Positions 4,259-63,329 of a stretch of DNA of 64,000 nucleotides are shown one piece after another. Numbering within the stretch: the first letter of the stretch is position 1; every line of letters begins with the position of its first letter. The DNA comes from a virus. Below the pieces are notes generated by a model that made no database searches, was not told the DNA's origin, and was given only the letters and a program-made list of their open reading frames with translations. The stretch covers positions 28,148 through 92,147 of IMG/VR virus record IMGVR_UViG_3300032331_001791. One strand, written 5' to 3'. Made by a program: the position numbers and the translations under genes.

Positions 4259-7200
4259 TTGGCAATTAATCCATCGTTTAACTGTGGCTACTTTGCTCCA
4301 GGTGATGGGCAAAGAATAGATCCACCTCCACCTGGAGGAGGGAGAAGACAGCCCCATGTAAGCCATAGGGAAAGAACGGACCCAAGAAGAACTCCAGGGG
4401 GTCCTATAATGCCCAGACCACCTGATGATGATAAGGGTGGAGGTAATCCAGAAAAGTTGTGCGTATATCCTAGTTGGACTTGTAATAGAAGACCTATCAC
4501 TCAACCTTGGGATGATTCTTTTAATTGTACTGTAACTGGTATTAATGGGTTTGTTAGATTATGTAAATGTGCTTATACAGAAAAAACTTGGTGTAGTTAC
4601 AAAGCAATAGAGGGACCATGTGATAATCCCCCTACTCTCGTCCCACCAGTTTATGATGATTTATCAAAGTGTTTCCAGAATTGTAAACCTAATAAAATTT
4701 TTGACTGTGATAGAAATCCAAGAACTTTAGAACCTAATCCAGGCAATCCTACTACTCCAAGTCCTGGTGGACCTTCTACTGGACCAAGCACATTTATTTT
4801 AATTCATGTGTGCAAGAAAAATCCAGGAACTGGTTATATAAATGCAGACTGCCCTCCCCCAGATCCTGGACAAATAGATTTATGTATTCGTTGTAGAAGA
4901 CGAATAATAACTGTAGCTCGTTGTACAACTGAAGCTAGAACTGTAGATTTTGGGGAACAATATCAGTTTGGTCCTGGGGAATATGAATATGATTGGCAAT
5001 GTACTGCTCAATGCAGACCAGAATTCGGACCATTAGAGTGTGAGTGGAGAAGTGTCACTGTTGATCCTAATAATCCAGCAGGTCCTTTTACACCAACTCC
5101 TGGAGGTGGAGGAGGTGGAATAACTCCAACCAATCCAAGTAACCCAGCAGGACCCTTTACACCAACTCCAGGGGGAAGTGGTGGGAGTACAACCCCTACT
5201 AATCCAAGTAATCCAGCGGGAGGCTTGACTGGAACTGGTCCTCAAAGTGGAAGTCCAAGCAGAAGTAGAGAATGTACTATTGATATATGGACTTGTTTAA
5301 GAACTCCAATAGTTCCACCAAAAAGAATTTTTACTGGATGTCCAAGTTATTGTGTATGTACTATTTCAGAAAATACACAATGTGTTCAAAATTATCCTAC
5401 AGGTAGACCAAAAAAATTAACTTGTCTACCTAATGAAACCTGTGATCAATGTAGAAATAGATACACTTTTGCATTAGGAGAATATAAAAGTCCAAGTCAA
5501 TGTCAATCTAATTGTACTACTAGAGTTGAGACTGATTGCGGAAGTGTAATTCCAGATGTAAATGAACCAGGAGGAGGAGCTACTGGAACAGGAGAAGGAA
5601 ATGGTAATGGTGGAGGGGGAATAATTATTCCAGGAGGAGCAGATACTCCAGGAGGTCTTACTTCAAGGCCCCCAAATTCTAATGGAGGAGGAATAATTTC
5701 AGGTAGAGTTATTACTGGACAAAGCAATAATTTCCCAGGGTTTTCTCCAGCTAACCAAAATTCTAATAGAACTAGAGTACCTAATAGAAACACTTATTCA
5801 GGTGGACTATCTGATTTAGAGCCACCATCAGAACCTCAAGTTAGAGTTTATTTTAAATGTGTAAAAACTCCTCCTACTTCACCACAGACAGTACCTTGTG
5901 TAAATCCAAGAACAAAACAAAGAACTTGTCAATGCCCAATACTTTCTAAGGCTTCATGTACCCAAGAAGTAGTCATACAAAATTTAGATGGTACTTTCCC
6001 CCCTCCAACATTACCCTATGATTCTTTCTCAACAGACAGTGACTCTGTTTGTAATGGGTGTGTGGATATAATTGGTGATTGCCCACTTGGGGCTATAACA
6101 GGCCCAACACAATTTGAAGAGCCTAATCAACCTAATAATGGAGGATCAACAGGGGGAACAGTCACACTTCCTGGAGGAACTGCTACTGGAACTGGGACAT
6201 CTTTAGATCCTTTTGGTGAACTAATCATATCAGAAGAGCTAACACAAAACGAAACTTTAGCCATAAACCAAGACTTTGATACTTCAATTTTATTTATGGA
6301 TGCTGCTCCTTTTGATGGAAATATAGTAGCTAATGATAAATATTATTTAGATATTTTTGGGCCTTATGTTCACAGAAGCATTCTTTATATTTTTGAGAAA
6401 GTTACTTCAAATGAGAATTGGGATTCCTTACCTTTATCTGATTTAACTTATGATAACATAGAAAAAAGTTTAAACACAGAATTTTTAGATGCTATAAAAA
6501 ATATTAAAGACTTAGATAATAAAAAAATACCTCATTATTATTTCCTAGATGTAATAAAATCAAAATTAGTAAATGGTGAATTAGATTCTATTGATGCTGC
6601 TCACTTAAAAACATTAGCTAGTCAAGAGCTTTTAGATCTAAGAATTCCAACAAAAACTAATAATGATCAATTAAACATTTTAAAAGCTTTTGCATATTTA
6701 GAACAAAGATTAATTCCATTAGATCCTACTGTTGCTGCTGGGAGAACTAGAAACTCTTCAATAGTTCCTTTATTTAAAACTTTTGCCACTGATTTAGAAA
6801 AAGCTATACCTGTTCGTATAGACGGAATAGATTATAAAGTTTATATTGATGATAATGATACAGTTATTGGAAGAGCAGGATATAAGATAACTGATGGTGA
6901 TTATGTAACCATAGGAACAGGTGCAGTCAGAAAAAGATTATATCTCTCAACAGAAAAAGATCATGCGTATGTCATAACTCCTTTTGATAAATTAGTTGCT
7001 TTAAATTTATTAGGAGGAGACCCAACAACTACACTATCAACTTCTAGTAATTATTCTGGATTAGTAGAATTTACTTATGACCTAAGTACTCCCAGAGAAG
7101 ACTTTTATTTCTTAAAGTTAGTAACTGATACTGTTTCTACTGCAAAGAAAACTCCATATATAGATACCACTATGGCTAGATATGATCTGCAAAAAGCAAG

Positions 7201-8089
7201 TACAGATGCAGATTTTTCAGCTATAAACGAGTATATAAAATTTAAATCTAATCACGAAATTTATCATATTGCATATGATGATGTATTCTTAGATCATATG
7301 CTTAATAGTAGTAGTGTTTATCTTATGCAAGATGATGTTCGTTTTGATGGAAATGCTAGAAAAACAAATAAGTCGGTTCCATTACTTGTTCGTCAAATGC
7401 CTTGGTATATAATATTATTTCCAACAGATAGACAAGATATGAATACTTTCTTAGGTAAATCTAAGATAACTACATTTAGGACTGGAAATAGTGGTATAGT
7501 AGAAAGAAGTTTAGTTTTCTCTTATCCTCTGAATAGAGACTTCTTTAATCCAAGTTTAGATTTACCACAATTTGTAAGTTATAAATTAAGTTTCCCAAAT
7601 GAAAATGTGTATGGTGGATTAGATATACAAAGTAGAGAAATGTTTTTAGATAAGAATAATCCTATATTTAAAACTGGATATAAGGGTGATCAACCAATTC
7701 CAAGAAAGAAATCTGGATTAAGAATTGCTTACGATATAATACAAGAATTAACAAACAATTATATCGTTGATCGAGGAGTAACAACCTTTGATGTTTTCTC
7801 AAGAATGAACTTTGCTCAATTTAATAGTTTTAGTACAAATTTAAGTGAGGGGGTATTTGAACAAATTAAATCTGGAGCATTTGGATCTAGAATGTATAGC
7901 GTAACTAAATATTCAGGTGACCCATTCTTATTTAAAACTGCTTTAGTTCGTAGAAGAGCAAGCGGGGCTGCTACAGATAATTTTAGACAAATTAAATCTA
8001 CAAATACAGGTTATTATGTAGATCCCCCAACACTTACTGAAAAATCAAAATTAATTATATCTAGAAATTCTAGACCGTTGAGGACCTAA
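4259..8089 (+). CDS. Giant Cys/Pro/Gly-rich structural protein
   Basis: A 1276-aa protein with a TTG start chosen because AGGAGG (4242-4247) lies 11 bases upstream and the frame carries no ATG before the conserved-looking N-terminus. Residues 1-615 hold about 39 cysteines in four Cys-rich blocks (roughly 60-160, 180-265, 335-430, 530-615), separated by Pro/Gly/Thr linkers. Residues 650-1276 contain no cysteine and look like an ordinary folded domain. The linkers include near-identical NPSNPAGPFTPTPGG repeats. Its place between baseplate genes and a PAAR-like protein suggests a tail appendage. No family recognised. Confidence 0.6.
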   Translation: MAINPSFNCGYFAPGDGQRIDPPPPGGGRRQPHVSHRERTDPRRTPGGPIMPRPPDDDKGGGNPEKLCVYPSWTCNRRPITQPWDDSFNCTVTGINGFVRLCKCAYTEKTWCSYKAIEGPCDNPPTLVPPVYDDLSKCFQNCKPNKIFDCDRNPRTLEPNPGNPTTPSPGGPSTGPSTFILIHVCKKNPGTGYINADCPPPDPGQIDLCIRCRRRIITVARCTTEARTVDFGEQYQFGPGEYEYDWQCTAQCRPEFGPLECEWRSVTVDPNNPAGPFTPTPGGGGGGITPTNPSNPAGPFTPTPGGSGGSTTPTNPSNPAGGLTGTGPQSGSPSRSRECTIDIWTCLRTPIVPPKRIFTGCPSYCVCTISENTQCVQNYPTGRPKKLTCLPNETCDQCRNRYTFALGEYKSPSQCQSNCTTRVETDCGSVIPDVNEPGGGATGTGEGNGNGGGGIIIPGGADTPGGLTSRPPNSNGGGIISGRVITGQSNNFPGFSPANQNSNRTRVPNRNTYSGGLSDLEPPSEPQVRVYFKCVKTPPTSPQTVPCVNPRTKQRTCQCPILSKASCTQEVVIQNLDGTFPPPTLPYDSFSTDSDSVCNGCVDIIGDCPLGAITGPTQFEEPNQPNNGGSTGGTVTLPGGTATGTGTSLDPFGELIISEELTQNETLAINQDFDTSILFMDAAPFDGNIVANDKYYLDIFGPYVHRSILYIFEKVTSNENWDSLPLSDLTYDNIEKSLNTEFLDAIKNIKDLDNKKIPHYYFLDVIKSKLVNGELDSIDAAHLKTLASQELLDLRIPTKTNNDQLNILKAFAYLEQRLIPLDPTVAAGRTRNSSIVPLFKTFATDLEKAIPVRIDGIDYKVYIDDNDTVIGRAGYKITDGDYVTIGTGAVRKRLYLSTEKDHAYVITPFDKLVALNLLGGDPTTTLSTSSNYSGLVEFTYDLSTPREDFYFLKLVTDTVSTAKKTPYIDTTMARYDLQKASTDADFSAINEYIKFKSNHEIYHIAYDDVFLDHMLNSSSVYLMQDDVRFDGNARKTNKSVPLLVRQMPWYIILFPTDRQDMNTFLGKSKITTFRTGNSGIVERSLVFSYPLNRDFFNPSLDLPQFVSYKLSFPNENVYGGLDIQSREMFLDKNNPIFKTGYKGDQPIPRKKSGLRIAYDIIQELTNNYIVDRGVTTFDVFSRMNFAQFNSFSTNLSEGVFEQIKSGAFGSRMYSVTKYSGDPFLFKTALVRRRASGAATDNFRQIKSTNTGYYVDPPTLTEKSKLIISRNSRPLRT
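5063..5222 (+). repeat. Tandem Pro/Gly linker repeats
   Basis: Three consecutive imperfect copies of a roughly 60-66 base unit encode NPxNPAGPFTPTPGG-like linkers inside the Cys-rich structural gene. The last copy is truncated. Confidence 0.75.
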
Positions 8090-8091
8090 TT

Positions 8092-8661
8092 ATGCCAGGA
8101 GCAATGAGAATAAATGACAGTTCTGTTGGTATTGTTGAAGCTTTTTATCCTAGCCCAGCTACTGGAGGTAGTCCTAATGTCAAAATAAATACAAGGTTTG
8201 CTATGAGAGTAAATGACTCATATGAAGACCATATTCATTTACCACCATTAGGAACTGTGCATACGGGTAGAGTTGCAGAAACAGGAAGTAGCACAGTTAG
8301 AATCAATGGATCCCCTGCCCATAGAGAGTTAGACCTAATAGGAGGAGGAAGAAGTTATACTGTCATACGAGAAGATGTACAAGAATTATGTGGTCAACAA
8401 AGACCTGGGTTTATAAGTTGGACTGCGCTTCCAGGTGGACCTTGTTATGTAATTCAAAATGGAACAACAATTATTGATGATGATTGTTGTGCAACCCAAA
8501 TAAATACTTATCAAGATCTTTATTTTGAACCTTGTAATGATATAGCTTTACAAGGTTCAAATAATGTTTTTATTGGGGGAAGTCCCACATCTCCAGGACA
8601 AAGCACTGGATCTGAGTTAATCTCTTCCACTTTATTAAGTACTCAAATAGTAGGAAGTTAA
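8092..8661 (+). CDS. PAAR-like baseplate spike tip protein
   Basis: A 189-aa protein starting MPGAMRINDSS. Around residues 60-85 it has TGSSTVRINGSPAHRELD, which matches the G-S-x-x-V-xx-NG-xPA-xR-xxD pattern of PAAR proteins that cap the central spike of contractile tails. Later residues include a DDDCC pair and a second NNVFIGGSP motif at about 160-168, which may complete the repeat. It starts 2 bases after the giant tail gene and ends the baseplate operon. The role is inferred from motif and context. Confidence 0.65.
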   Translation: MPGAMRINDSSVGIVEAFYPSPATGGSPNVKINTRFAMRVNDSYEDHIHLPPLGTVHTGRVAETGSSTVRINGSPAHRELDLIGGGRSYTVIREDVQELCGQQRPGFISWTALPGGPCYVIQNGTTIIDDDCCATQINTYQDLYFEPCNDIALQGSNNVFIGGSPTSPGQSTGSELISSTLLSTQIVGS

Positions 8662-51307: not shown

Positions 51308-52745
51308 AGGTAATTATCTAGTAATTTGTGATGAGATAAATCTGGTTCTTCAAGTTAAAATATTAGATAACAATGAAGAATCAGCACTTTTTACTCAAAT
51401 ACGCCAGAAGATCTCTGGAGTAGAAAAATATTTTTCTTACATAGAATACAAAGAATTTATTTGTAAGAAAATTATTATTGACTATGAAGAGATAGTTTCA
51501 GGTGCTATTCAGCATGAAATTGATAGTGATGCATATAGAAAATTATTGGATAACTTATATTCAGCAGTATGTATAATTTATCCCCCTCTATCGCTAGAGT
51601 TTGTTGCAATTGATTTGAATTCTGAGAAACACAGCAAACTAGACAAGATGAAAAATTCCTCAGATTTCTTAAAGAACTTGACAGAGACTTTGAGATCACA
51701 AATAGGAAAAGATACTGTTAAGAAGAAGGTTAGCAAGGTTAAAGTTCCTCCAACAATTAAGACTAAAACTGGTTTTGAAAAGTTGGAAAGTGAAATGAAA
51801 AAATCTATTATTGGACAAGACCATGCTATTGATTCTGTTATAAAGCATATGAAGCTTATATCAGCAGGATTATCACACTCATCCTCTTTCTTCTTTGTTG
51901 GACCTACTGGAGTCGGTAAGACTGAACTATCAAAGCTTATAGGCTCTAGTTACAGTGGTCACTTCTTTAAGATAAATTGTGCTGAATATGCTGGAGCACA
52001 CGAATACGCTAAACTCATAGGATCACCCCCAGGATATGTGGGTCATTCAGACAAGAGTATTCTGAAAGAAAAATCAGACATATCAAATAAGTGGGTATTC
52101 CTCTTTGATGAAATTGAAAAAGCAGATGCTAAACTAGCAGATTTTCTATTGTCTTTGCTCGATGATGGAACTTGTACAGATAACATGGGCAATGTGCTAG
52201 ATTTTAGCGAATCTATTTTTATCTTCACTTCCAATCAAGGGGTTAGTGATGTTAAGTATAGCAGTCTAGGTTTTGTAAAAAACAAACCTAGTAAGGAATC
52301 TATTAACAGCACGATCTTCGATTCAGTAAAAAAGAAGTTTAGTCCTGAATTTATGAATCGTATAGATGAAGTTATTTTCTTTAATTCCTTAAGCAAAGAG
52401 GATGTAAGGAAGATAGTAATCAATAAGCTATCAGAATATCCAATTAATCTTACTGAAGACTTAATTGATTATGTTATAGAAAAGTCTTATTCTTTCGAGT
52501 ACGGTGCTAGAAATGTTGCTCGTTATATTAAAAACAACATTGCAACAGTAATAGCAGAGGCCATACTAGAGAAACAAGTTAAAATGCCAGCTAAATTTAT
52601 CCTAAATATTAAGGATGGGCTACCACAAGTTTGTGAGGTTATAAATGAAAAACCAGCGAAAGAGCAAAAAACCAAAAAGTCAAACCAAGAGGTATTGGAA
52701 GTTCGTGTCGGGGGAGAAAATCCTGCTGCACAAAAAAATGAGTGA
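51297..52745 (+). CDS. ClpA/ClpB-type AAA+ ATPase (single D2-like domain)
   Basis: A 482-aa protein. Residues 1-150 are a private N-terminal domain. The AAA+ module follows: IIGQDHAIDSVIKHM (about 171-185), Walker A GPTGVGKT (202-209), a GSPPGYVGH pore loop (about 243-251), Walker B FLFDEIEKAD, sensor FTSNQGV, and FMNRIDEVIFF with the Arg finger. The C-terminal D2 small domain ends in FEYGARNVARYI. Single-ring Clp-like unfoldases occur in environmental T4-like phages; target unknown. The last 40 residues are basic and disordered. Confidence 0.85.
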   Translation: MNTKGNYLVICDEINLVLQVKILDNNEESALFTQIRQKISGVEKYFSYIEYKEFICKKIIIDYEEIVSGAIQHEIDSDAYRKLLDNLYSAVCIIYPPLSLEFVAIDLNSEKHSKLDKMKNSSDFLKNLTETLRSQIGKDTVKKKVSKVKVPPTIKTKTGFEKLESEMKKSIIGQDHAIDSVIKHMKLISAGLSHSSSFFFVGPTGVGKTELSKLIGSSYSGHFFKINCAEYAGAHEYAKLIGSPPGYVGHSDKSILKEKSDISNKWVFLFDEIEKADAKLADFLLSLLDDGTCTDNMGNVLDFSESIFIFTSNQGVSDVKYSSLGFVKNKPSKESINSTIFDSVKKKFSPEFMNRIDEVIFFNSLSKEDVRKIVINKLSEYPINLTEDLIDYVIEKSYSFEYGARNVARYIKNNIATVIAEAILEKQVKMPAKFILNIKDGLPQVCEVINEKPAKEQKTKKSNQEVLEVRVGGENPAAQKNE

Positions 52746-54804: not shown

Positions 54805-54885
54805 TCTAAACACTCTTTGAAAACTTAAATTTAGGTAGAACTAAAAATGTTCTACCTATACTATATATTATGGAGAAATGCTTTT

Positions 54886-55385: not shown

Positions 55386-55649
55386 ATGAATATACATGAA
55401 ATTTTAAAAGAATTAGAATTAGATCTGCTGTTAGCCGATGGGTTCGATGAAGCCCTAGTCGGTTTTGCAGAGGTCAACGGAGAGACAGTAGTAGTTTATG
55501 ACTATTATAAAATCGTAGACATTCTAATAGAAAGAGATGAAATGGATCCTGAAGATGCAAAAGAATATGCAGACTTTAATGTTAAAGGCGCGTATGTAGG
55601 GCCAAAAACCCCCATCTTCATGTCACCTCTTGCCAAAAAGTCAAATTAA
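55386..55649 (+). CDS. Conserved small acidic phage protein
   Basis: An 87-aa protein from ATG 55386, nine bases after tRNA-Lys; an upstream GTG inside the tRNA is rejected. LDGFDEALVGFAEVNGE... (read here LADGFDEALVGF), VVVYDYYKIVDILIERD and EYADFNVKGAYVGPKTPIF match a widespread small protein of phages and bacteria with unknown function. Its last codons (AKKSN) come from the repeat CCAAAAAGTCAA. Confidence 0.65.
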   Translation: MNIHEILKELELDLLLADGFDEALVGFAEVNGETVVVYDYYKIVDILIERDEMDPEDAKEYADFNVKGAYVGPKTPIFMSPLAKKSN

Positions 55650-55670
55650 CCCCTATTACCAAAAAGTCAA
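55633..55670 (+). repeat. Two copies of CCAAAAAGTCAA repeat
   Basis: CCAAAAAGTCAA occurs at 55633-55644 (end of the 87-aa gene) and as TACCAAAAAGTCAA at 55657-55670, four bases before the next ATG. Three more copies lie at 61.8-61.95 kb. Confidence 0.75.
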
Positions 55671-55674
55671 ACTT

Positions 55675-56022
55675 ATGCTAATAAAAGCTGATTTATACAA
55701 TATTACACACTCAACAGTGCAAGGAGAGCCAAGCACTATCGAGTTCAAGATATCGCATTTCCGAAACTACACCAATAAACAGATACTCAAGAATGGCGGG
55801 TATACCTGTTTGTCAATGGTGGAAGATGGAAAGCCATACTCAATTGTGTCTCGCTGTAGTGCGCGGGAAACTTACAATCGTAAGAAGGGTGTACAAGAGT
55901 GCATCCGTAAGTATCTACAAAGAACTTATGGTAGCTATGGAACAGAAATTATGTTAAGTATGGATCGTAAGAATCCTCGTCACTACATAGTTCATTTCTC
56001 AGTTTACAAAGATAATAAATAA
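55675..56022 (+). CDS. Hypothetical protein
   Basis: A 115-aa protein from ATG 55675 (an upstream TTG lies in the previous gene). Beta-rich start, then ARETYNRKKGVQECIRKYLQ and a C-terminal YIVHFSVYKD strand. No SD; the repeat element fills the leader. Not recognised. Confidence 0.5.
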   Translation: MLIKADLYNITHSTVQGEPSTIEFKISHFRNYTNKQILKNGGYTCLSMVEDGKPYSIVSRCSARETYNRKKGVQECIRKYLQRTYGSYGTEIMLSMDRKNPRHYIVHFSVYKDNK

Positions 56023-56056
56023 CTTTAGTAATACTAAAATTTTTCTGAAAAAATCC

Positions 56057-56085
56057 GTGACAAAGGCTTCCTCGTAGGTTATAGT
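56057..56085 (+). promoter_or_regulatory. Early promoter, leaderless type
   Basis: -35 GTGACA (56057-56062), 17-base spacer, -10 TATAGT (56080-56085), then six bases (CCCTAC) to the ATG at 56092. The start of transcription would fall on or beside the ATG. Confidence 0.7.
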
Positions 56086-56091
56086 CCCTAC

Positions 56092-56574
56092 ATGAACATT
56101 TTCGCCCTTGATCTCGACCCAAATCTTTGCGCTGCCTATCATTGCGATAGTCATGTTGTGAAGATGATTACCGAGCATATGCAAATGCTCAACTCCAATG
56201 CCAAGTTCCTATCCAAAGTTAGTGGTAAGATAGCTTGGTTGAACCATCCCTGCACCATCTGGCTCCGCGAGTCTAGAGAAAACTTGGATTGGCTTAACAA
56301 GGTACAGATTGAACTTAACTTTGAATGGCAAAAAAGGTGGAATCACCCTTCCAATCTTAACCATCGGGGTTATGATCTCTGGCGTACCCTGTATGATAGT
56401 AAGAACCTCAGGAATCTCTTCCCTGATGTTCCCATGACTCGCTTCGCACAAGCGATGCCTGACGAATGCAAGCGCGATAATCCTATTGATGGATATCGCA
56501 CTTACTACAACACTCACAAGAAAACTTTCGCTAAGTGGAAAACTCAAACTCCTTTCTGGTATAATCCTGTATGA
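56092..56574 (+). CDS. Pyrimidine-dimer-glycosylase-like conserved phage protein
   Basis: A 160-aa protein. MNIFALDLDPNLCAAYHCDSH with HVVKMITEHMQML, HPCTIWLRESRENLDWL and RFAQAMPDECKRDNPIDGYR match a common phage protein annotated as pyrimidine dimer DNA glycosylase-related. The catalytic mechanism is not evident, so the enzymatic label is weak. It follows a leaderless-type promoter and has no SD. Confidence 0.6.
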   Translation: MNIFALDLDPNLCAAYHCDSHVVKMITEHMQMLNSNAKFLSKVSGKIAWLNHPCTIWLRESRENLDWLNKVQIELNFEWQKRWNHPSNLNHRGYDLWRTLYDSKNLRNLFPDVPMTRFAQAMPDECKRDNPIDGYRTYYNTHKKTFAKWKTQTPFWYNPV

Positions 56575-57617: not shown

Positions 57618-57858
57618 TGATATGATTAACCATCCGAAGCATTACACCTTCGGTAAATTTGAAGTAATTGATGTAATCGAGGATGCAAAGCTCGACTACC
57701 ATCTTGGGAATGTAATTAAGTACATCCTGCGTGCAAGACATAAAGGGAAGTATCTTGAGGATCTCAAGAAGGCTAGATTCTATCTAAATCGTAAGATTGA
57801 GCTTATTGAGAAAGAACAGGAAGACATTCCCGACTTCGAAAATCCTCCCTACAAATGA
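57598..57858 (+). CDS. DUF3310 family protein
   Basis: An 86-aa protein from ATG 57598 with AAGGAG 5 bases upstream, overlapping the previous gene by 20 bases. INHPKHYTFGKFEVIDVIED, YHLGNVIKYILRARHKG and LEDLKKARFYLNRKIE are the complete DUF3310 pattern of phage nucleotide-kinase-like proteins of unclear activity. Confidence 0.85.
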   Translation: MHTSNNDDMINHPKHYTFGKFEVIDVIEDAKLDYHLGNVIKYILRARHKGKYLEDLKKARFYLNRKIELIEKEQEDIPDFENPPYK

Positions 57859-58457
57859 AATCAGAACTAACAAGCGATCAATGGGATAAGATTGAGAATA
57901 AATATGGCAAACTTATCCACACTATCTGCCAGATGATTTCTGGAGATCAGGCTCTTTGTTCTCACGAAGACTTGTATTCTGATCTTTGTATTGCGGCTAT
58001 CGAAGCTGTGATTGGCTTTCAAAAGAAATACAACAAGCCTTTTGATGAAATCATTGATGATCCTATCTTCAATAAATACATTAAGACTTGTCTTTGGAAT
58101 TACAAGAACAACCGTGGAACAAAGCTAACCAAGAAGATGCACATTAGAAAGTGTATCCCTTTGGTTTGGGATGAAGACAAAGATGGAAAGCACTTTGATT
58201 CCCAAGCTGCTGATTTTATGGTATCAAAGGAAGATCCTTCGTTTGGTGTAGAACTTGAGTTTACTAATAAGTTTATTGAGTCCACACTTGACAAGGAGCA
58301 ATTGAACCTGATCGAGTACATAGTTGACAATCCAGATCTTTTGAAAAAGAATGGTAAAGTTAATCGGGCTGCTCTTTCTGACAAACTATCTAAGAACTGG
58401 GCGCACATTGATTCCCAACTTAACTCAATTTCAAAGCTGGTAGGTATTGAACTATGA
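57855..58457 (+). CDS. Sigma-factor-like protein (region 2)
   Basis: A 200-aa protein. IHTICQMISGDQALCSHEDLYSDL with CIAAIEAVIGFQKKYNK and IFNKYIKTCLWNYKNNRGT follow the sigma70 region 2 pattern (helix, EDLYSD, F-x-KY, IKTCLWN). The C-terminal 60 residues are a helical segment that could replace region 4 (LSKNWAHIDSQLNSI). It would be a second sigma-like factor besides the gp55-like one, here in the early region. Tentative. Confidence 0.55.
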   Translation: MKSELTSDQWDKIENKYGKLIHTICQMISGDQALCSHEDLYSDLCIAAIEAVIGFQKKYNKPFDEIIDDPIFNKYIKTCLWNYKNNRGTKLTKKMHIRKCIPLVWDEDKDGKHFDSQAADFMVSKEDPSFGVELEFTNKFIESTLDKEQLNLIEYIVDNPDLLKKNGKVNRAALSDKLSKNWAHIDSQLNSISKLVGIEL

Positions 58458-60227: not shown

Positions 60228-60245
60228 TTTTTTCCAAAAACCATG

Positions 60246-60274
60246 TTGACCAGCCCGATTTAGTAGGCTATACT
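60246..60274 (+). promoter_or_regulatory. Early promoter, leaderless type
   Basis: TTGACC (60246-60251), 17-base spacer, TATACT (60269-60274), then ACCTACC and the ATG at 60282. The -10-to-ATG stretch is identical to that at 60651-60666. Confidence 0.8.
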
Positions 60275-60281
60275 ACCTACC

Positions 60282-60635
60282 ATGAAAATCGCCAACGGAT
60301 ACCAAATTAAACCCGGGGCTAACTTGCGGGGGGCTAACCTTCGGAATGCTGACCTTAGGGATGTTAACCTTAACTACGCTAACCTTTCTCATGCCGACCT
60401 CAAGGGTTCTAACCTTCACGGTGCTGACCTTTATCATGCTGACCTTTATCATGCTGATCTTGATGGTGCAGACCTTCAGAATGCTTTTCTTCATGGTGCT
60501 AACCTTTCTCATGCTGACCTTCGAGGGGCTGACCTTCGAGGTGCTGACCTCAGAGAAGCTAACCTTGAGGGAGCTAATCTTGAGGGTGCAGTTATTTCTA
60601 CTGGATGGATAATCACGAAAAATCCCTTGACCTGA
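60282..60635 (+). CDS. Pentapeptide repeat protein
   Basis: A 117-aa protein made of about 18 A(D/N)LxG/x pentapeptides (residues 14-103), forming a right-handed quadrilateral beta helix. Some members mimic DNA and inhibit gyrase; this one has no other domain to specify a target. Leaderless-type promoter; no SD. Repeats leave other frames open, so overlapping ORFs here are shadows. Confidence 0.88.
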   Translation: MKIANGYQIKPGANLRGANLRNADLRDVNLNYANLSHADLKGSNLHGADLYHADLYHADLDGADLQNAFLHGANLSHADLRGADLRGADLREANLEGANLEGAVISTGWIITKNPLT

Positions 60636-60656
60636 CCCCCCCTGCTAGGCTATACT
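60627..60656 (+). promoter_or_regulatory. Early promoter, leaderless type
   Basis: TTGACC (60627-60632), 18-base spacer, TATACT (60651-60656), then ACCTACC and the ATG at 60664. It overlaps the end of the pentapeptide gene. Confidence 0.78.
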
Positions 60657-60663
60657 ACCTACC

Positions 60664-60981
60664 ATGAGCACTCAACCCGAGCATAACTACAAGGACTACG
60701 ACCAGTTCGAGGCCAAGTACAAGCCCCATATGATCGCCCCCGGTCTTGTGAGGGAGTATTACTGGTACAATGCCGAAGACTGGGAGGAGATCAAGAAGGC
60801 CGATCCTCGCTGCGTCTGGACGATGGTAGAGGGGGATGAGGAGGTCTGTGATCCTGATGATCCCGAATACAGCAGCAACCCTTGGATCGTTATCAATGGA
60901 TTCCATTATGTCAACAGGATCTTCTATATTTTGACTGAGGTTCCTTGGACTGACGAAGAAGAATACCTTTACCAATCTTAA
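60664..60981 (+). CDS. Hypothetical acidic protein
   Basis: A 105-aa acidic, Tyr/Trp-rich protein (EHNYKDYDQFEAKYK, EYYWYNAEDWEEIKKAD). Richer in GC than its neighbours, especially at third positions. Leaderless-type promoter. Not recognised; an acidic DNA mimic is one possibility. Confidence 0.55.
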   Translation: MSTQPEHNYKDYDQFEAKYKPHMIAPGLVREYYWYNAEDWEEIKKADPRCVWTMVEGDEEVCDPDDPEYSSNPWIVINGFHYVNRIFYILTEVPWTDEEEYLYQS

Positions 60982-61280: not shown

Positions 61281-61535
61281 ATGAACATAGAAACAAACTC
61301 AGCTATTCCACATAATAAAATTACTGACCTAAATATATCAAAGTTAATATTATGTCTTGAGTCCATAAAAAGTAAATATGGCGACTTACCAATATGGATA
61401 ATGACTGTAAACGAAGAGAATAAAAAAGAAATTAAAGAGCTTACAAATCTATCTTGCTTTGAAAAAGATGGTTTAAAAGTAATATGCTTGTTGTCTGAAA
61501 ATCCTGAATCTGTATTATTTATAAGACCACAATGA
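61281..61535 (+). CDS. Hypothetical protein
   Basis: An 84-aa protein with GAGGAAG RBS. Alternating pattern (ISKLILCLESIKSKYGDLPIWIM) resembles a small alpha/beta domain. ATGA overlap with the zinc-ribbon gene. Not recognised. Confidence 0.5.
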   Translation: MNIETNSAIPHNKITDLNISKLILCLESIKSKYGDLPIWIMTVNEENKKEIKELTNLSCFEKDGLKVICLLSENPESVLFIRPQ

Positions 61536-61819
61536 ATAAGTCTTTCTGTGATGATTGCGCCCAAGAGTTCGATACCAGAAATATGATTCCAGTAGAAGAA
61601 CTTAAATGGAATGTAACGAGTGCAAACATGAGAGAGTCTGCTACCCTCTGTACTCAATGCTACAATAAGCATGAAAGCAGAACCTATACCTATAATCATC
61701 CCACAGGAGATATTGTATTCCAAAGCTGGGATCACTACAATAGGTGGTACATCTACGAAGGTAAAAATAAAACAAAGAATACAAAGACTAAGGTAACAGA
61801 TACCAAAAAGTCAAAGTAA
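61532..61819 (+). CDS. Small zinc-ribbon-like protein
   Basis: A 95-aa protein with CDDC (6-9) and CTQC (about 41-44) pairs, then YTYNHPTGDIVFQSWDHYN and a Lys/Thr tail. The final codons (DTKKSK) are made by the TACCAAAAAGTCAA repeat at 61801. Probably nucleic-acid or protein binding. Confidence 0.55.
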   Translation: MNKSFCDDCAQEFDTRNMIPVEELKWNVTSANMRESATLCTQCYNKHESRTYTYNHPTGDIVFQSWDHYNRWYIYEGKNKTKNTKTKVTDTKKSK

Positions 61820-61952
61820 GAGTTTAAAGTAAATAAAACCCATGTGAATAAAACTTGTTTTTTATTCACACCACATACCAAAAAGTCAAGGTTATGTGGG
61901 AACAGGTGGGAGATGGTGGGGGGAGGTGGATATATAAGTACCAAAAAGTCAA
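61801..61952 (+). repeat. Three iteron-like TACCAAAAAGTCAA repeats
   Basis: Exact 14-base copies at 61801-61814, 61876-61889 and 61939-61952, 75 and 63 bases apart, all in the same orientation. Between the last two lies a G-rich tract (61898-61929) of GGG runs that could form a quadruplex. Confidence 0.85.
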
Positions 61953-62096
61953 GCTTTATATGGTATCTTGGTTCAATCTTGTTCAATCTTGATTTGAATT
62001 TGGTTTTTGCTTTAGCCCCACTCAAAACATATTTCTCAAAAAACTCCAAAAAACATCTAAAATCCCGAATATGGAATGAATTCTAAGCAAGATTTG

Positions 62097-62121
62097 AACT
62101 TGTAAGAACTATTTACAAGTT
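62097..62121 (+). other. Inverted repeat hairpin
   Basis: AACTTGTAA (62097-62105) is exactly complementary to TTACAAGTT (62113-62121) with a 7-base loop. No T run, so not a terminator. Confidence 0.65.
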
Positions 62122-62150
62122 TCCCAATCTCCGAAATAGGAGATAATAGG

Positions 62151-62188
62151 AAATCATATAGAATCTAGAAATAGATTTTGTATGATTT
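62151..62188 (+). other. 17-bp hairpin with GAAA tetraloop
   Basis: Bases 62151-62167 pair with 62172-62188 (15 Watson-Crick and 2 G-T pairs) around a GAAA loop. Stable on RNA and without T run; candidate structured RNA or protein-binding site. Confidence 0.7.
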
Positions 62189-62199
62189 ATATCCATTTA

Positions 62200-62274
62200 T
62201 ACGCACTAGTTCGTAGATGCTTATACGCACTTTGGTGAATGAAACATAACCAAAATAATACGAACTAGTGCGTA
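62200..62274 (+). repeat. Paired operator-like near-palindromes
   Basis: TACGCACTAGTTCGTA (62200-62215) and its exact reverse complement (62259-62274) each centre on ACTAGT. A half-site TTATACGCACT is repeated at 62198-62208 and 62221-62231. Typical of binding sites for a dimeric protein. Confidence 0.75.
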
Positions 62275-62471
62275 GGAATTTCTCTCACCCCCAAGTTTTC
62301 AAATAAAACCACAATAGGTTGTGTTCTAAAATCAGACCCCCAATCCCTTGTGGTGAGCCGAAATCTAGCATACCCCCTCCAAACCGCAAGGGGTTTTTTG
62401 GGATTTTTTTGGAAAAGCTTGGAGAAGTGTAAACCCTTGTCAAATAAGGGGTTAGGTTTATGGGGCCCCCC

Positions 62472-62496
62472 GGACTTGACGCAAGTCCTTTGTTTT
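62472..62496 (+). terminator. Rho-independent terminator
   Basis: GGACTTG (62472-62478) pairs with CAAGTCC (62482-62488), 3-base loop, then TTTGTTTT. Faces the plus strand, ending early transcription before the minus-strand genes. Confidence 0.8.
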
Positions 62497-62520
62497 CAAG
62501 CACTTACGCCACCGCGAGCC

Positions 62521-63204
62521 TCAATGCTGAATAAATCGAATAGGTTGGGAAATATTCTTATTCCAACACAATCCACAATCTGCACAAGATTCAGTCTTTC
62601 CAAGCTGTTCGGGGCAAGTAATCGAATCTCCCTCTTCCTCGAAAACATTAGCTGAATAGATACCATTCTCGGGGAAGGATTCATTGCTATTGGAGAATCG
62701 AATCAGACACCGATTTGGGAAAAGTCTATTAGCATGACTAATATCTCGCCCAATATTGGTATCATACTTATGCGCCGTGTATCCCCAAACATAAAGATTA
62801 GGATACATAATCAAATGGCGAATCCAAAATTCTGTATATTCGACAGAAAAGAAATCCCCAAGCACATGGAGACGAATAGCCACTTTCTGATAAGTAGCAC
62901 ACAGTCCATCAATCTCTTTTGCCAGTCTAGCCATCAATTCACTATTAGGCATTGCCATACGGTGAGCGAATGGCATATTATTCCCATAGCACTTCTCCCA
63001 CATCGCACAATAGGCGGGGCAAGTATTCCGCTCCTCCAGCGTCAAAGTATAAATAATTGCACCCTTCCACGGGCCTTTCCTAATCTTCTTTCCCAGCTTC
63101 TTATTGGTACTAGGCTTCAGGACGCTATGAGTATAGTCCGAGCCCTTGAGGGATTGAAGATAGACCGTGCGCCCACTCTCGATTGCTTCGCTAGTCTTGC
63201 TCAT
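62521..63204 (-). CDS. Gp88-like Cys-rich phage protein
   Basis: A 227-aa protein. KGAIIYTLTLEERNTCPAYCAMWEKCYGNN (described here from 49: TLTLEERNTCPAYC, then MWEKCYG) gives the first Cys triplet; the end holds CPEQLGKTESCADCGLCW. VAIRLHVLGDFFSVEYTEFW and YVWGYTAH lie between. This matches my recollection of the Gp88-type phage/plasmid proteins; function unknown, with a metal- or Fe-S-binding look. Higher GC than the main genome; flanked by inverted repeats; leaderless-type promoter. Confidence 0.65.
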   Translation of the reverse strand: MSKTSEAIESGRTVYLQSLKGSDYTHSVLKPSTNKKLGKKIRKGPWKGAIIYTLTLEERNTCPAYCAMWEKCYGNNMPFAHRMAMPNSELMARLAKEIDGLCATYQKVAIRLHVLGDFFSVEYTEFWIRHLIMYPNLYVWGYTAHKYDTNIGRDISHANRLFPNRCLIRFSNSNESFPENGIYSANVFEEEGDSITCPEQLGKTESCADCGLCWNKNISQPIRFIQH

Positions 63205-63239: not shown

Positions 63240-63329
63240 GAAAAAAATGGGAAAAGTTGTAACCCCTTGCAAATAAAGGACTTGCGTCGAGTGGGGCCCC
63301 CGCGGATGCCATTTTGGCAGGAATAGTGC

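Follow-up and report, generated by a model that had tools for sequence, protein, structure and literature searches.

What is the function of the noncoding DNA where, in an uncultured phage, two blocks of genes converge? The DNA analyzed here (the window) spans bases 28148 to 92147, the final 64 kb, of a linear virus record of 92,147 bp in IMG/VR; coordinates refer to the window unless a contig is named. A preliminary description had singled out positions 61801 to 62300 as a possible replication origin or regulatory hub on account of repeats, hairpins, palindromes, and a G-rich tract found there. To our knowledge, origins and termination control are essentially unknown for uncultured phages of this kind.

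Gene layout around the junction

The virus is an uncultured tailed phage of bacteria. Judging by profile matches, on which all gene annotations here are based, it encodes a T4-type terminase, a tail sheath, gp32, DnaB, and PolA. The rightward block, which extends to ~61.8 kb, carries tail sheath, PolA, gp46/47-like, RNR, DnaB, gp32, RecA, ClpA-like ATPase, tRNA, and IMPDH genes; an Rfam search recovered tRNAs only. The leftward block begins at 62.5 kb and is more GC-rich. At its start are a gp88-family protein (PF17338; 62521 to 63204, minus strand), which opens the convergent minus unit, and then a DUF932 protein. The two transcription units are indeed convergent, as had been proposed: plus-strand genes stop at 61819, and gp88 stops at 62521.

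Contig G001 (30,458 bp) is 98.8% identical to the window from base 62148 on and carries a T4-type terminase ~10 kb beyond this matching start. Since the far end of G001 matches the left end of the window’s contig (82%), the map is circular, with a length of ~110 kb. A terminase-profile scan returned more than 500 related contigs; the relatives are all uncultured and partial, and their counts are lower bounds. No close cultured relatives were found, the nearest cultured phages having ~34% terminase identity, and an M78-protease used as a query retrieved no relatives.

Sigma-70–like promoters (TTGACC/GTGACA-17-TATACT/TATAGT) are seen upstream of the junction at 60240 to 60300, 60600 to 60666, and 56040 to 56095. 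Start codons lie 6 to 10 nt past their −10 boxes, as would suit mRNAs with almost no leader. The sequence CTCTTTGAAAACT at 54815 to 54830, past a tRNA-Asn gene, is similar to boxA antitermination sites.

Oriented iterons and a single-copy box

As the preliminary description stated, three exact copies of the 14-base iteron TACCAAAAAGTCAA are present on the plus strand, at 61801 to 61814, 61876 to 61889, and 61939 to 61952; all are kept in relatives. The stretch is gene-free, with the correction that iteron 1 overlaps the last codons of a 95–amino acid ORF (61532 to 61819). Additional plus-strand copies, overlooked at first, are located 6 to 9 kb upstream: one with a single mismatch within the 3′ end of the ClpA-like gene (52670 to 52683), another with a single mismatch 38 nt ahead of the start codon of ORF 55675–56022 (55631 to 55644), and an exact one abutting that start codon (55657 to 55670). 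When up to two mismatches are allowed, the window contains seven matches to TACCAAAAAGTCAA compared to 1.3 expected, a number reached in 0 of 100 shuffles. The 12-mer CCAAAAAGTCAA occurs six times on the plus strand and never on the minus strand (0.02 expected).

A conserved box, likewise missed in the preliminary description, lies 3′ of the last iteron (62006 to 62019, plus strand). It reads TTTGCTTTAGCCCC in the window, and its consensus is TTTGCTT(G/T)A(C/G)CCC. The box is found exactly once, on the same strand and beside the iterons, in G000, G003, L077, L115, L135, L163, L192, L428, and L390, and as variants in L190, L376, and L370. It is located 3′ of the iterons in 9 of the 12 clusters read, with variants in 3 more, and is single-copy within 92 to 106 kb.

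In G000, G003, and L163, the box reads TTTGCTTTA or TTGCTTTA, which we take to resemble the T4 MotA box. In T4 middle promoters, the MotA box is positioned about 12 to 13 bp upstream of a −10 hexamer. The present locus differs from such promoters and from MotA-box origins in that the MotA-like 9-mer is limited to three genomes, most relatives having TTTGCTTGACCC, and in that a conserved −10 is missing. For the latter reason, judged by eye, a sigma-70 promoter at the box was rejected. MotA itself was not found in a search run without a positive control.

Hairpins, palindromes, and terminators

All structural elements listed in the preliminary description were recovered where it had placed them. 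The 17-bp GAAA-capped hairpin (62151 to 62188) folds at z = −7.0, and contig G001 starts at its foot (62148). The second, small hairpin, AACTTGTAA-n-TTTACAAGTT (62096 to 62122; z = −3.9), is kept in G003 as GAACTTGTAAGATCTACTTACAAGTT. The two mirror-image palindromes are exact reverse complements, with the imperfect palindrome TACGCACTAGTTCGTA (62200 to 62215, plus strand) as the left arm and TACGAACTAGTGCGTA (62259 to 62274, minus strand) as the right arm of a 16-bp inverted repeat that is exact and folds, when paired, at z = −7.1. An 11-bp hairpin that separates iterons 1 and 2 (61843 to 61870, plus strand; z = −4.3) had escaped notice, and the palindrome ACCACAATAGGTTGTGTT (62308 to 62325) is kin of ACCACAACATATWGTGGT in G003, G004, G005, G009, L135, and L428. 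The proposed quadruplex-like tract is present on the plus strand (61895 to 61928) but has only three runs of at least three Gs, below the usual four-run quadruplex rule.

Neither the G-tract nor the GAAA hairpin is common to the relatives as a sequence; G- or C-rich tracts between iterons are also found in G003, L370, L376, and L390. Hairpins beside the iterons are variable, and the neighboring palindromes and terminators reappear with changes. To the right of the box, paired ACCACAAYATATWGTGG-type palindromes and terminators recur among relatives: G003 has strong intrinsic terminators in both directions, and L370, L376, and L390 have hairpins with T tails.

An intergenic repeat distinct from the iterons is located at 62434 to 62500, as two back-to-back copies sharing GGGGCCCC. 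This ~40-bp element (e.g., GACGCAAGTCCTTTATTTGCAAG) recurs upstream of leftward-block genes (also at 63266 to 63300, at L069 12949 to 15420, and throughout L070), and its copies adjoin promoter-like TTGACA-16/17-TANNAT sites. The copies are alike within each phage and unlike between phages, as in concerted evolution. In G003 (L069 11600 to 11860), a leftward promoter-like TTGACA-16-TAAGAT site is followed by a pair of stable hairpins and by a bidirectional terminator of 20 bp. A noncoding RNA of ~200 nt, transcribed leftward, is therefore possible; no convincing promoter for such a transcript was found in G000.

Conservation across the phage family

A lack of conservation in relatives, which the preliminary description had named as grounds against its proposal, was not what we observed: the iterons are kept at the same locus across the phage family. 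In relatives, the junction where the rightward operon meets gp88 likewise carries 3 to 15 copies, all on the same strand. Within clade 1, G003 (106 kb; gp88 58% identical) carries copies just past the last plus-strand gene (L069 11267, 11369, and 11407) and two more upstream, and G002 carries three. The form (A/G)AGTCAAAG is present in 11 copies in G004 and 14 to 15 copies in G005, in about 650 to 700 bp, and G006 has 13 strict copies within the 10 kb adjoining the junction. Extra clade 1 copies are located up to 10 to 15 kb upstream, some of them intragenic and always sense; in the extended form, no opposite-strand copies were found in this clade. The same small gene has a copy directly ahead of its start codon in G000, G003, G006, and L346. 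Copies that overlap reading frames use all three frames (KVK, KKSK, and KSQS), and on our reading the signal is therefore not a protein motif.

In L370, L376, and L390 of clade 2 (terminase ~70% identical), the same interval contains four sense ACCAAAAAGTCAAA copies followed by an intrinsic terminator; throughout this clade, nearly all sites fall within the noncoding cluster. Clade 2 contigs also have reading frames of 24 to 37 amino acids with a likely transmembrane segment after the iterons and box (L135 ~7160 to 7260, L428 ~8400 to 8500, and L190 ~8250 to 8370).

When 2.9 million viral contigs were scanned for the exact pair pattern, at least nine matched, all of them family relatives and all at this locus; each of the nine listed has three to five sense copies there and no antisense copy. 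For six pair-pattern matches from bacterial genomes, no similarity to the phage's proteins was seen. A plain search of viral contigs for two copies of the core proved too unspecific. Spacings within clusters measured 49 to 53 bp in 13 of 31 cases, which come from related phages and are not independent, and no 10.5-bp helical phase was detected. An apparent 12-bp quantization was distrusted because the spacings were drawn from related phages.

The more distant G009 lacks the iterons and has, at the same junction, a perfect 12-bp tandem array, AATAATCGAACT, of at least 11 copies. Both ends of this 111.6-kb contig consist of the same array, with a 127-bp overlap (L334 19478 to 19613 and L335 1 to 127), indicating that the genome is circular or permuted, though the record is classed as linear.

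Outside the iteron zone, AGTCAAAG is absent from both strands of seven iteron-bearing genomes or contigs, while 11 occurrences are expected under an order-3 model. This zero count falls at about the 1st percentile of comparable 8-mers; many of the others at zero are restriction-site palindromes. In the iteron-less G009, AGTCAAAG occurs 7 times compared to 4.4 expected and is not avoided. Off-target avoidance modestly suggests, for genomes that share ancestry, that the motif is recognized as double-stranded DNA. CAGCTG, GAGCTC, and CTGCAG are also strongly avoided outside the iteron zone in G000 and G001 to G006, possibly as the mark of a host restriction enzyme.

The iterons are thus conserved, in one orientation and at one locus per genome, within a composite layout. 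Since the repeats and the box are found again at this position in many relatives, sequence comparison identifies them as a real, conserved control site at the junction.

Candidate binding proteins

The small gene preceded by an iteron copy, n142 (ORF 55675–56022), has a repeat copy at its start codon in four clade 1 genomes. It was considered as an iteron binder and rejected: a profile search finds n142 in the iteron-less G009 and not in partial clade 2 iteron loci. Its predicted fold (pLDDT 72) gave no confident match. A nearby 200–amino acid protein (57855 to 58457) is encoded in all clade 2 loci spanning its position as well as in G000, G003, G006, and G009. The fold matches of this protein are weak, most of them being to sigma factors, and none is significant. 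Initiators of the Rep_3, Phage_rep_O (lambda-O), and Bac_DnaA types were not found among the phage proteins.

Replication origin or transcription control

Our tentative interpretation is that the region is a composite cis-acting locus of iterons, with an iteron-type replication origin as its likeliest function. The defining parts of the locus, which is kept throughout a large uncultured phage family, are 3 to 5 (up to about 15) oriented ACCAAAAAGTCAAA copies plus one box, set in A+T-rich, hairpin-rich DNA with bidirectional terminators at its end. A phage- or host-encoded protein would bind the array of oriented repeats on the DNA. Least certainly, the array might load the replication machinery (DnaB, gp32, and PolA in this phage) at the box and the nearby A+T-rich DNA. 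Counting in favor of an origin are several direct repeats in the same orientation, conserved at one locus across the family; the single-copy box; the frequent 49- to 53-bp spacing; the absence of AGTCAAAG outside the zone; the tandem array of G009 at the same junction; the near confinement of clade 2 sites to the noncoding cluster; and the DnaB helicase and gp32-type protein that the phage encodes. The layout suits an iteron origin, and a 3′-3′ junction has no need of a promoter operator. As in the iteron origins of plasmids, P1 oriR, lambda ori, and RepA_N systems, short oriented direct repeats are located in noncoding DNA, at one locus per genome, with palindromes and hairpins nearby; a RepA_N example is the origin of the PLE satellite (PMC7145576). 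The DNA here is A+T-rich as in those origins (33% GC at contig positions 89948 to 90447), but the genome has ~35% GC throughout. Unlike in those origins, no known initiator was found, the repeats do not form a tight tandem array but are irregular or separated by ~50 bp (the 12-bp array of G009 is an exception), and the junction is convergent, with maximal GC skew.

A classical origin lies at the minimum of cumulative GC skew. When the skew analysis suggested in the preliminary description was run, the cumulative skew of G000, G003, and G009 was found to reach its maximum, not its minimum, at the locus. Gene direction alone explains this skew, which therefore shows only that the locus is no classical minimum. 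Of the two roles proposed at the outset, an origin is possible and a regulatory hub equally compatible; the skew, the failure to find a known initiator, the extra sense copies upstream in clade 1, and the lack of a 10.5-bp helical phase speak against an origin.

It is conceivable, though doubtful, that the locus represents a family-wide origin of a new composite type, in which oriented ACCAAAAAGTCAAA iterons and one TTTGCTTGACCC box, at the end where the two transcription units converge, serve a large uncultured group of phages with a T4-type terminase and tail sheath, the initiator having no kinship to the iteron-binding proteins known so far.

The clusters read are located 5′ of the terminators of the plus-strand operon, so a role at the level of transcription or RNA fits too. 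The main explanation of this sort, which we consider somewhat less likely than an origin, is that the repeats are stoperator-like control sites: a protein on each asymmetric repeat would slow or stop RNA polymerase at the 3′ end of the rightward operon and shield the junction from head-on transcription, and copies at gene starts and ends would tune single genes. Stoperators are asymmetric sites of 13 to 14 bp that are oriented with transcription and are not cooperative (PMC6550527, PMC9283540). The iterons resemble those of cluster A mycobacteriophages in length, asymmetry, and position near gene ends and starts (ORF 55675 and its homologs in all four clade 1 genomes examined); all copies are sense to transcription and 5′ of intrinsic terminators, with no antisense copies of the extended form. 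Orientation within a cluster is inherited, however, and is thus weak evidence for transcription control. The differences are that stoperators number 20 to 30 and are spread genome-wide, whereas the iterons occupy the last 10 to 15 kb or, in clade 2, essentially the cluster alone at one junction; that the sequence is another one; and that neither repressor nor integrase was identified. Because a search of the phage found no integrase, an immunity repressor is unlikely. Transcription control also leaves the conserved single-copy box and the 49- to 53-bp spacing unexplained.

Repeats that are sense within a transcribed 3′ region could also act as RNA, binding an RNA-binding regulator or sponging a host RNA or protein, with the copy at the ribosome-binding site exerting translational control; in G006 and L346, an iteron copy is indeed located between the Shine-Dalgarno sequence and the start codon. 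We regard this as improbable: flanking sequences keep the repeat unpaired no better than shuffles do (mean z of −0.6 to +0.5), and the antisense strand, too, lacks the motif outside the zone. Direct-repeat arrays serve packaging or segregation in some phages and plasmids, and contigs G001, G002, G005, and G006 end within ~1 kb of the locus, as might be expected if a small terminase or partition protein acted on the repeats. This is very improbable given that the locus is ~7 to 10 kb from the terminase gene, that G000, G003, and G004 assemble through it, and that G009 closes into a circle there. Most improbable of all is that the junction is just a bidirectional terminator zone for converging transcription, its repeats being incidental. 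The both-strand terminators of G003 and the T-tailed hairpins of L370, L376, and L390 agree with termination at the junction, but the exact 13- to 14-bp motif and the 12-bp single-copy box are kept even though the terminases are only ~70% identical, which disfavors this explanation.

Implications for the phage family

The iteron and box locus provides a short signature by which this phage family can be singled out among millions of contigs; it also supplies a defined DNA target with which the protein that binds it may be isolated. Whichever function applies, the start of replication or the handling of head-on transcription in these phages becomes directly testable.
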